DNA of 42,000 bases from positions 1-42,000 of the forward strand of contig JAKSSE010000007.1 in the NCBI GenBank assembly GCA_024403255.1, in the 5' to 3' direction. Source of the DNA: Lachnospiraceae bacterium. GTDB lineage: Bacteria > Bacillota > Clostridia > Lachnospirales > Lachnospiraceae. Positions 35,390 to 38,928 of the stretch are shown here, piece after piece. Positions within the stretch are counted from its first letter, which is position 1; every line of letters starts with the position of its first letter. Position numbers and translations under genes: made by a program. The notes under the pieces are model-generated. The model was not told the origin of the DNA. It searched no databases and saw nothing but the letters and a program-made list of their open reading frames with translations.

Positions 35390-35721
35390 GGGCTAGTACT
35401 GGTTTCGACGGGCCAGCTGAAGTCGAAGAAGCAAGTGGCTGATATCCTACTATCAAACTTAAATGTAAACGCTAACAACGATTACGCACTCGCTGCCTAG
35501 TTGCAGCTGTCCTTCTGGGTATACCTGTTTACTCGGGTAAGGGCATCGAACTAACAGGAAACGACACATAGAAAGCTTTGACTATGTGGGCGTATCATGA
35601 AGCTACCGCCTGAAGGTTTTGTTCTTTGAACCTTTAGATACGGGAAATTAATCAACGAACTAAACTTGTAGAAGAGCGAGGGACGATGGTTCGGACGCGG
35701 GTCCGACTCCCGCCTAGTCCA
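35390..35721 (+). ncRNA. ssrA: Transfer-messenger RNA (tmRNA)
   Basis: The one-piece tmRNA begins GGGCTAGTACTGGTTTCGAC and ends with a tRNA-like part. The 7-bp acceptor stem is GGGCTAG (35390-35396) with CTAGTCC (35714-35720), including one G-U. The T-arm GCGGG / CCCGC (35697-35713) holds a seven-base loop. Discriminator A is 35721. The following bases are CTA, so the 3' CCA is not encoded. The tag reading frame is at 35471. smpB is directly upstream and a very strong terminator follows three bases later. Confidence 0.97.
35471..35500 (+). other. tmRNA proteolysis-tag reading frame
   Basis: After the TGTAAAC context, GCT is the resume codon. The frame reads ANNDYALAA and ends in TAG. The terminal YALAA is the usual Firmicute degradation signal for ClpXP-type proteases; the ANND part departs slightly from the common ANDN/AENN forms. 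Confidence 0.9.
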
Positions 35722-35723
35722 CT

Positions 35724-35765
35724 AAAGTAAATGCGAACGACGATGTCGTTCGCATTTACTTTTTT
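35724..35765 (+). terminator. Strong intrinsic terminator after tmRNA
   Basis: A perfect stem of about 16-18 bp (core AATGCGAACGAC / GTCGTTCGCATT) closes on a GAT loop and runs into TTTTTT. Confidence 0.97.
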
Positions 35766-35884: not shown

Positions 35885-35913
35885 TTGACCGGAAACGATT
35901 CCGGAAGTATTAT
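35885..35913 (+). promoter_or_regulatory. Promoter of the PilZ/surface-protein unit
   Basis: TTGACC (35885-35890), 17 bases, TATTAT (35908-35913). The predicted start near 35920 gives a 5' leader of about 160 bases. Bases 35766-35884, after the tmRNA terminator, hold nothing I recognise. The leader also carries a weak hairpin (CGCATT / AATGCG, about 36008-36029). The spacer between the two boxes is filled by operator 1. Confidence 0.75.
35889..35904. promoter_or_regulatory. LacI-family-like operator 1 (promoter spacer)
   Basis: CCGGAAACGATTCCGG has 6-bp inverted arms around a central CG, the layout of LacI/GalR-type operators. It covers the spacer of the promoter, so binding should block RNA polymerase. 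Confidence 0.65.
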
Positions 35914-35924
35914 TATCTCAAGTT

Positions 35925-35940
35925 TCGGAACCGTTACCGA
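35925..35940. promoter_or_regulatory. LacI-family-like operator 2 (just after the transcription start)
   Basis: TCGGAACCGTTACCGA is an imperfect palindrome with central CG, 36 bases centre-to-centre from operator 1. Confidence 0.6.
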
Positions 35941-35948
35941 CAACAATA

Positions 35949-35964
35949 CCGAAAACGGTTCCAA
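35949..35964. promoter_or_regulatory. LacI-family-like operator 3
   Basis: CCGAAAACGGTTCCAA shares the GAAxCGxTTCC-like core, 24 bases from operator 2. Its AACGGTTCC is the exact reverse complement of GGAACCGTT in operator 2, so the RNA could also fold into a 9-bp stem. Confidence 0.5.
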
Positions 35965-36078
35965 TACAAAGGCAAACAATTCGGAATAGTATACTTTAGA
36001 ACAGTCGCATTATGAAGAAAAAATGCGCAAAATGGTTCCTCAAATAGAAATTTGTGTTTTGTATATAGAGGAAAGACA

Positions 36079-36387
36079 ATGGAAGAAAGACGCCAAATTA
36101 ACAGAGTTGAGTACCCGACAAAGAGTTTGATAGTGGTATGTGATACTGGTGAAAAGTATTATGTGGATACTGTTAACGTAAGCCCACTAGGCATGGGGAT
36201 TAAGGCACCAGAGGATACACCGAATCTTGAAGGTAAAGACATCATTACTGTAGCAGATACACTGATTATGTATGCGGATGTTACACGACAGGTAAAGAAA
36301 GAGGATGGTACTTTTGAGATTGGAATTCGGGCAAGAAAATTCACCTCAGAGGTTTTGGAATATTTATTCACAAATTTAGGTCACTAA
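36079..36387 (+). CDS. Small PilZ-domain protein (predicted c-di-GMP receptor)
   Basis: A 102-residue single PilZ-like domain. The c-di-GMP-binding motifs are present: RxxxR as Arg5-QIN-Arg9 and the NxSxxG variant of (D/N)xSxxG as Asn33-Val-Ser35-Pro-Leu-Gly38. The rest fits a short beta barrel. The frame is open from a GTG at 36052, but the ATG at 36079 has AGAGGAAAG upstream and restores the motif to the N-terminus. It is 27 bases before the surface-protein gene and appears to share its promoter, so c-di-GMP may influence that protein. This link is inference from position. Confidence 0.85.
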   Translation: MEERRQINRVEYPTKSLIVVCDTGEKYYVDTVNVSPLGMGIKAPEDTPNLEGKDIITVADTLIMYADVTRQVKKEDGTFEIGIRARKFTSEVLEYLFTNLGH

Positions 36388-36414
36388 TTATTTATCTATA
36401 GAATGGAGGAAAAA

Positions 36415-38928
36415 ATGAAGAAGAAAATGGCAAACGACAAAGTAATTCGTGCAATGGCAATCGGTATTTCAGCAGTGCTTGCAACTGCACAGCCAATGAC
36501 TGCGTTTGCGGCAGAACCGGATTCAGGGGATGCAGGGAACAATGGTGTTGAGTCGGAGGCCAAGGTTAGTGTTGAAGATGTCAAGTCAGCTGTAGGTAAT
36601 GATAAAACTGTTGATGATGCAGTAACTCAGGCTGGCGTAGTTGAAGAAGCTGCAGAAGAGGCTAAAGTGGCAGAAACTGAAGCAACTGAACTTAAGGAAA
36701 ATGTAGCAGCAGCAGATGCTGATATGGATAAGGCATTTAAGAATGTAGAAGCTGTCGATAAGGCAGAGGATAAACTCATTGAAGGTAAAGAAGAAGCAGA
36801 CAATGTTGTAAAGTCTATAACAGAAAATGCAGCAGAAGCACATGCTACAGTAGAAGAGGCTAGCAAAAACGTTGACACTTATGATGTTGAAATAAAGAAT
36901 GCTACCTCTATTGCTGAGGCCAATACTGCATATGAGAACATAATTGTTGAAGTGAGCAATGCAGAGGAAGCATGTGAAGAAGCAAAAAAGAAGCATGCAG
37001 AACTTATGAGTGATTATGATAAGGCTCTTGATGAGATTAAGATTGCCAAAAAAGCATATGAAGATGCAAAGGAAGAGGGCTTAGGAAATATTGATGAAGC
37101 TTTAGCAAATCTTGCCTCTGCAAAATTAGATGCTGAAGCAATTAGAGATAAGGCAATTGTCGTAGAGGCTGAAATAGATATTCTTAAAGATATTGAAATT
37201 CAAAAAACTAAGGTTGATAAGATTGCGAATAAAGAGGAAACAGGCAATTATTGGCGAGAGGCAGATAAACTTGCTAATCTCATGATAAAGTACTCATATA
37301 TCATAAGAGATGATGTAGATGTGAATAGTATTTCCTTTTCTACATGGGTATCGGATAAATCAGACGATAACAACGTTGTTGTAACCTATAAGTTGAAGGG
37401 AAGCGACAAGGAAGTTACCGACTACTTTGACTATGTTGCATATGATAGTGACGGTAATGACATTGTTAGTACAAACAAAACACCTGCATCTATTACAGTA
37501 TTAAAGAAGATACCTGCATATGAATCTGAGGAGGGAAATAAACTTACAGTTTCGTCTGAAGATGATAAGTTGGTTTACAAGATTAACGGTGAGAATCTTG
37601 CAGAAAACCAGAGTATTGTAGTGGAAGAAGATGGAAATATTAAAGTGGTAACTAGTGAAATAACTGGATATACCACAGAATACAAGAACGGGGAATCTTC
37701 GTTTGAGGTTGTGGTTAAAAATGGAAATGGACATGGAAACGGACAGATTCAATATAAAGTAGACGGAAAACCTCTAAATGGAAATGCGAACGTAAAGTAC
37801 ACGGTTGAAGGTGATGAGAAAACAGGATACACGGTTACTACCAGCGAGAAAAAGAAAGTTGATTTCCATAATGAGTTTTCGGGAGATAATTTAGTAGTAA
37901 TACTTGATCAAGATGGAAATCTTAAGTCTATTGATAAAACAGATAGTATTTTTCCTGTGACCTATAGGAACTTTAAAAAGGTATCTGATACAGTATATGA
38001 AGTTCAAGTATGGGGGTTATCAACATGTTCATGGAGAACTCATAAACTTTATGCAACAAATAATACAATTAAAGTAGATGGATGGGTAGAAACTGACGTT
38101 AAAACATATGGTAAGGTTGAAACTCCTACATACAAAACAACAGAGGAAACTTTTGCGTCAGGAACATTTGTTAATAAGGGGGATTCATACCTTTCAGATA
38201 ATGACGTTGTTTTAGTTAATAAGATTAAAAATGTTGATTTATTGAATGCAGCAAATGAGCAGATTAAACGAGTTGAAGCAGCAGAAAAAGCTGTTGAAAA
38301 TATCAAGGCTCAGATGGCAGCTCTTGATGTAGAGGATTTTGCCTTTGATGAAGGTGGATATGCAAGCCTTCTTATCTCATATCAGACAAGACTTTACGCA
38401 GCAGAAGCAAATCTTGAAGCTGCTAAGGAAAAACTTGTCGATATCAAAAATAAAGAGGCAGTAGCAAAAGCAGATCTTGCGGCAACTATTGCTAGACTCA
38501 CCCCAGCACCTGTAAGAAGAAACGACAATAACAGAGTGCCTGTTGTGCAAGAAGCAACCCCAGCACTTGACTTTGTATATGCTCCAGGCGTAGCGGTAGC
38601 TGCAGCACCTATGCAGGTGGTAGCAGGTGGACAGCCTGCTCAGATTGCACAGGATGGTGGTAATGCAGCAGCACAGGGTGCAGGTGAAGTATTTGACCTT
38701 GGTGAGGCAGCAACTCCACTTGCAGATTTCGCTGAGGAAGACGAGACATTAAATGAAATCACTCTCCAGGATGAGGCGACTCCTCTTGTTGACTTTGAGC
38801 AGGCAAGCCGTATGTCATGGTGGTGGTTACTTGTTGTAGCTGTGTTAGGTGTTACAGGCTATGAACTGTATGAAAAACATCAGAAGAAAATTGAGGCTCG
38901 TGAAGAAGCAGCAAAAAAGACTAAATAA
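36415..38928 (+). CDS. Large secreted surface protein with coiled coils and a C-terminal membrane anchor
   Basis: I do not recognise the family as a whole. The 837-residue protein has a signal peptide (basic MKKK, hydrophobic core, probable cut in TAFA-AEPD after residue 32). Residues about 40-270 and 615-700 are Ala/Glu/Lys-rich helices that look like coiled coils. Residues about 300-600 are beta-rich and hold two degenerate repeats starting YKINGENL and YKVDGKPL. The C-terminal part is Ala/Gly/Gln/Pro-rich with three ATP-x-x-DF motifs (714-720, 766-772, 788-794). It ends in SWWWLLVVAVLGVTGYELYE and a basic tail. There is no LPxTG. The layout suggests an adhesin or cell-surface stalk. GGAGGA at 36405 supports the ATG at 36415 over the one at 36403. 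Confidence 0.85.
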   Translation: MKKKMANDKVIRAMAIGISAVLATAQPMTAFAAEPDSGDAGNNGVESEAKVSVEDVKSAVGNDKTVDDAVTQAGVVEEAAEEAKVAETEATELKENVAAADADMDKAFKNVEAVDKAEDKLIEGKEEADNVVKSITENAAEAHATVEEASKNVDTYDVEIKNATSIAEANTAYENIIVEVSNAEEACEEAKKKHAELMSDYDKALDEIKIAKKAYEDAKEEGLGNIDEALANLASAKLDAEAIRDKAIVVEAEIDILKDIEIQKTKVDKIANKEETGNYWREADKLANLMIKYSYIIRDDVDVNSISFSTWVSDKSDDNNVVVTYKLKGSDKEVTDYFDYVAYDSDGNDIVSTNKTPASITVLKKIPAYESEEGNKLTVSSEDDKLVYKINGENLAENQSIVVEEDGNIKVVTSEITGYTTEYKNGESSFEVVVKNGNGHGNGQIQYKVDGKPLNGNANVKYTVEGDEKTGYTVTTSEKKKVDFHNEFSGDNLVVILDQDGNLKSIDKTDSIFPVTYRNFKKVSDTVYEVQVWGLSTCSWRTHKLYATNNTIKVDGWVETDVKTYGKVETPTYKTTEETFASGTFVNKGDSYLSDNDVVLVNKIKNVDLLNAANEQIKRVEAAEKAVENIKAQMAALDVEDFAFDEGGYASLLISYQTRLYAAEANLEAAKEKLVDIKNKEAVAKADLAATIARLTPAPVRRNDNNRVPVVQEATPALDFVYAPGVAVAAAPMQVVAGGQPAQIAQDGGNAAAQGAGEVFDLGEAATPLADFAEEDETLNEITLQDEATPLVDFEQASRMSWWWLLVVAVLGVTGYELYEKHQKKIEAREEAAKKTK

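Follow-up and report, generated by a model that had tools for sequence, protein, structure and literature searches.

What controls a promoter that is overlapped by palindromes and stands before the genes for a PilZ-domain protein and a large surface protein? We addressed this question in a stretch of 42,000 nucleotides from a Lachnospiraceae genome (the window). The first-pass annotation had described a TTGACC-17-TATTAT promoter overlapped by three CG-centred palindromes, and we found both promoter and palindromes at 35885-35964. The features of the region are as follows.

35390..35724, + strand: ssrA (tmRNA; Rfam RF00023, E=4.7e-47), a separate upstream unit
~35726-35765: hairpin terminator of ssrA, from the sequence
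35885..35913, + strand: predicted sigma-70-type promoter TTGACC-17-TATTAT, from the sequence (10/12 consensus)
35889..35904, no strand: operator O1, CCGGAAACGATTCCGG, inside the -35/-10 spacer; core GGAAACGATTCC at 35891
35925..35940, no strand: operator O2, TCGGAACCGTTACCGA, at ~+6 to +20, just past the predicted start; core GGAACCGTTACC at 35927
35939..35950, no strand: degenerate operator unit O2b, GACAACAATACC, 12 bp past O2
35949..35964, no strand: operator O3, CCGAAAACGGTTCCAA; core GAAAACGGTTCC at 35951
36079..36387, + strand: PilZ-domain protein, 102 aa (Pfam PF07238, E=1.3e-5)
36415..38928, + strand: surface protein, 837 aa, from the sequence and an AlphaFold2 model

O1, O2, and O3 are even palindromes with a central CG and a 12-bp core GGWAMCGKTWCC, the form of the LacI-family operator class. 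Their centres are 36 bp (O1 to O2) and 24 bp (O2 to O3) apart, and the weaker unit O2b fills the gap between O2 and O3 to give a series, O2-O2b-O3, with a pitch of 12 bp. Even palindromes centred on CG, like sites in tandem, are characteristic of LacI-family regulators (PMC4052901). Tandem sites ~13 bp apart and groups of three to four sites have been documented, e.g., for GntR at gntKU (Ravcheev et al., 2014; PMC4052901), whereas the array here combines a 12 bp pitch with one site 36 bp away in the promoter spacer. In the 42-kb window, only O1, O2, and O3 matched GGWAMCGKTWCC with at most one mismatch, against a chance expectation of 0.26 such sites per 42 kb in dinucleotide shuffles, and no triple within 80 bp occurred in 12.6 Mb of shuffled sequence; the pattern was built from the window sites themselves, however, so the site count alone overstates the case. 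Independent evidence comes from malE, both from a second copy of the element there and from the orthologs of that gene.

The element is correctly oriented, and the 165 bp that separate it from the PilZ start codon downstream contain no gene. An Rfam search of the window for leader RNAs returned the tmRNA as its sole match. We also observed in the PilZ leader an 11-codon open reading frame (36013-36048; MKKKCAKWFLK) without a clear ribosome-binding site, and a small CGCATT/AATGCG hairpin.

The host genome is a 1.50-Mb MAG, 60.7% complete. The 29-bp promoter/operator core occurred at exactly two places in this assembly, both full matches to the degenerate pattern, and no further place appeared in the 1.50 Mb when the composite pattern was allowed one to three mismatches. 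The second place lies 5' of malE on contig C2, where TTGACTGGTAACGGTTCCGGAGATATTAT is followed by GGAACCGTTACC, again with a centre spacing of 36 bp. The operon there reads malE-malF-malG-malQ-malR: the malE product is an SBP_bac_8 protein that matches a solved maltose-binding protein, malF and malG are the two permease genes between malE and malQ, and the malQ product matches TIGR00217 with 383 bits (cut-off 206). Directly 3' of malQ, the last gene, malR, encodes a LacI-family protein of 346 aa. In a family search, malR was the sole LacI-family gene of the assembly; a second match, on contig C14, was rejected as a 211-aa open reading frame with a weak HTH match and no LacI protein. The same operator thus precedes maltodextrin transport and utilisation genes in the same genome, and a LacI-family regulator gene is encoded within that operon, as in a MalR-type regulon. 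The first-pass annotation had placed the repressor gene outside the window and suggested looking genome-wide for a LacI-family gene with its own site; our pattern searches led to malEFGQR, which carries the element and ends in the candidate gene, malR. Genome sites were collected by pattern searches and from the stretches around the matches, and among single sites with zero or one mismatch only those at malE and in the window were intergenic, the remaining two dozen or so lying within open reading frames that had been called mechanically.

The likeness between the two promoters extends beyond the operators. From the -35 box through O2, the malE and window promoters are identical at 51/60 positions; when palindrome cores and hexamers are left aside, the figure is 18/24 (P ~2e-6, assuming independent positions). 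A third such promoter precedes malE in G127, a genome of another genus. The -10 hexamer and the spacing are the same in the window promoter and the malE promoters of its own genome and of G127, and the -35 box is near-identical. The O2 core of the window is identical to that of malE, and O2b aligns with GATAACGGTTTC in the own malE promoter and GACAACGATACC in that of G127. The own malE promoter carries no O3 at the 24 bp distance, whereas the G127 promoter has O1, O2, and, 24 bp beyond, O3 as in the window, its array being identical to that of the window at 31/38 positions. Furthermore, the G127 MalR is 77% identical to the own MalR, with the same residues 1-34, including the recognition helix. 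This likeness is most simply explained by a duplicated mal promoter, with convergent constraint as an alternative; a search for related DNA on plasmids found none. When the whole composite promoter was searched for across the family, only the own genome and G127 gave convincing matches; most other matches, with two to three mismatches, were chance-like, and one of them (L053) precedes an unrelated regulator gene.

We also noted that a GGDEF-domain gene (L016:9819-11165, minus strand) lies directly 5' of the own malE promoter, in the same direction and with a hairpin in between; a different gene takes its place in G127.

Across Lachnospiraceae, such palindromes precede malE in about half of 30 orthologs inspected, often as two to three sites at a 12-bp pitch. 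A malR-related LacI gene was adjacent in 11/12 evaluable genomes with sites versus 1/7 without (Fisher P=0.0017, which is optimistic since the tested genomes are related to each other and came from the first entries of the malE list). One genome with sites was left out of this count because its contig breaks off there, and we did not take a LacI protein of 22% identity in G224 for malR. G136 has sites at malE and no malR in the fetched stretch. Thus the motif is kept at malE orthologs with malR nearby, and because its presence in the family tracks an adjacent malR, we read the palindromes as operators of a MalR-type maltodextrin repressor. The malE copy and its orthologs back the first-pass view of the palindromes as LacI-type operators over the PilZ/surface-protein promoter: by their sequence, the window sites are genuine LacI-type operators for a regulator of the MalR type, with predicted binding and an ordinary mechanism. 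They probably belong to the regulator of malEFGQR on C2.

The MalR operators of Firmicutes, known from Streptococcus pneumoniae MalR and from comparative-genomics MalR regulogs, are likewise even palindromes with a central CG before maltodextrin transport genes; there too, the repressor is encoded with the mal genes and a regulon has more than one target promoter (PMC4451989, PMC4052901). The half-site differs (GGWAM here, CGCAAA for pneumococcal MalR), and the operators here form arrays with a 12-bp pitch. This system is also set apart by its additional predicted target, a PilZ/surface-protein operon; for the pneumococcal regulator, PMC4451989 lists carbohydrate genes as targets.

We propose that a MalR dimer would bind O1 between the -35 and -10 boxes, that MalR would also occupy the O2/O2b/O3 array just past the start site, and that the bound protein would block access of RNA polymerase. 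Maltose or maltodextrin imported by the MalEFG transporter would release MalR, and the PilZ and surface-protein genes would then be expressed together with the mal operon. A duplicate of a mal promoter would most likely have come to stand before a relocated copy of the PilZ/surface-protein pair. We put the probability of this joint reading at roughly 0.85. We read binding, effector, and sign of regulation from what the family shows, and co-induction is likewise a prediction. Activation of maltodextrin genes by some LacI regulators is known, according to the title of one paper (PMC3737153); the operator positions here nevertheless fit repression. Repression relieved by maltodextrin is most likely, because a protein at O1 between the boxes and at O2 past the start would block the polymerase.

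We then compared other PilZ loci, using a family set (homologs in 17/299 genomes) and a second set of 80 loci from named genomes. Conservation of the palindromes upstream of orthologous PilZ genes, on which the first-pass annotation had staked its reading, was found in neither set. Within 350 bp upstream, none of the 80 loci had comparable operators (the highest score was 10.5, versus 16.5-18.3 for the window sites), and the family loci showed scattered matches at 10-11 of 12 positions with no cluster before the PilZ gene. Operators were absent from a paralogous PilZ/surface-protein pair on contig C16 of the same genome, and G192 and G136 have them at malE and none at the PilZ gene. The nearest PilZ homolog is only 73% identical, so the comparison took in no true sister locus; in the loci examined, the PilZ/surface-protein operon is not a conserved MalR target across species. 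Despite this, the malE match makes the window operators themselves secure at the level of sequence. Because of the lack of conservation upstream of PilZ orthologs, the MalR-PilZ link seems lineage-specific, and it may be recent or confined to the genus.

The same pattern would also suit a relic, i.e., a mal promoter that remained from a lost or translocated mal gene; its place before the PilZ operon would then be accidental and without selected function. The element closely copies the mal promoter, none of the other PilZ loci examined has the operators, and no other fetched PilZ locus has ssrA alongside. However, the hexamers, operator cores, and spacing are intact though the flanks have diverged, and the element points the right way at a short, gene-free distance from the PilZ start codon. 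We consider a relic unlikely; this reading bears on how the element arose and whether it was selected, less on what it does now, and it overlaps with the MalR reading, since the promoter would still be MalR-controlled.

It is less probable still that the true ligand, at malE and the PilZ operon alike, is another LacI-family regulator absent from the assembly, such as CcpA or a beta-glucan regulator. At 60.7% completeness, the assembly could miss a LacI gene of the same specificity, and LacI paralogs can recognise similar CG-centred palindromes. However, the sites track an adjacent malR in other genera, and the G127 MalR shares residues 1-34 beside the same operators. From a CcpA-type regulator one would expect many targets, but the motif occurs at just two intergenic loci. 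Moreover, cre sites end TG..CA, unlike the GG..CC ends here. Looping, raised by the first-pass annotation and considered here as a tetrameric repressor joining O1 to O2/O3, is highly improbable: the operators do flank the start site, but their centres are 36 bp apart, or ~3.4 helical turns, which would make a very short loop, and the 346-aa MalR appears to have no C-terminal tetramerisation segment, as its alignments with non-tetrameric relatives, of similar or shorter length, extend to residue 341-345, close to its C-terminus.

The PilZ protein carries RxxxR and NxSxxG, the c-di-GMP-binding motif of PilZ receptors (RxxxR and (D/N)xSxxG), which is conserved in homologs and present in 78/80 further ones, and a receptor role is predicted; here, the PilZ protein stands alone at 102 aa, and its partner is a large coiled-coil surface protein. 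The latter consists of an N-terminal signal-like helix, a coiled-coil stalk, a low-confidence beta-rich region, a second coiled coil, and a C-terminal membrane helix (MSWWWLLVVAVLG); its AlphaFold2 model has a mean pLDDT of 52, but >90 across much of the coiled coils. It had no Pfam or NCBIfam match. A starch-binding domain was considered and rejected, the beta-rich part having no Pfam or PDB sequence match and mostly pLDDT <50. A terminator-like hairpin follows the surface-protein gene, and the GH16 gene sits beyond this hairpin and an oppositely oriented AraC-family gene. Since GH16 is thus separated from the operon and the regulator is one of alpha-glucan metabolism, the glucanase neighbours are irrelevant. 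Of the unusual link once proposed between a sugar repressor and a c-di-GMP receptor, the uncommon target stands, with a predicted regulator of the maltodextrin type, and the glucanase context falls away.

By inspection, a PilZ gene is followed by a large coiled-coil surface protein in ~50/80 Lachnospiraceae loci (e.g., window 36079-38928, L035:2590-4972, and many of L067-L146), so judged by sequence the pairing is widespread in the family. The paired surface proteins share an N-terminal NKxVIxAxSIGxSA and a C-terminal MSWWWLLIxxLGATG anchor, and a stricter pair of regular expressions recovered 25 loci with both ends. A literature search found no description of this pair in the collection covered. 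In L092, L096, L100, L109, L110, and L115, the PilZ homolog is followed by a gene for a G3E/CobW-like GTPase and not by one for the surface protein. A leader sequence, GGAACGCCCGCTACAT, precedes PilZ genes in at least two genera (L037:1400-1414, L103:4900-4914, and L050:1892-1906, minus strand); it stands before a terminator-like hairpin in L050 and has no Rfam match.

The type of switch is ordinary, and its target is unusual. The chances are about even that, through a captured mal promoter, maltodextrin directly sets the level of the PilZ receptor and its adhesin-like partner, coupling starch sensing to c-di-GMP-controlled attachment in a Lachnospiraceae bacterium of rumen or gut; attachment to starch as the reason for maltodextrin control of a surface protein is our guess. 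A model of the MalR operator in Lachnospiraceae comes out of the analysis, as does a widespread pairing of PilZ with a coiled-coil surface protein that has apparently not been described before. If true, the proposed link would be a clean example of regulon expansion via promoter duplication. Functions of c-di-GMP are little studied in fibre-degrading gut Firmicutes, and the link would tie sugar sensing in these bacteria to c-di-GMP signalling and cell-surface composition.
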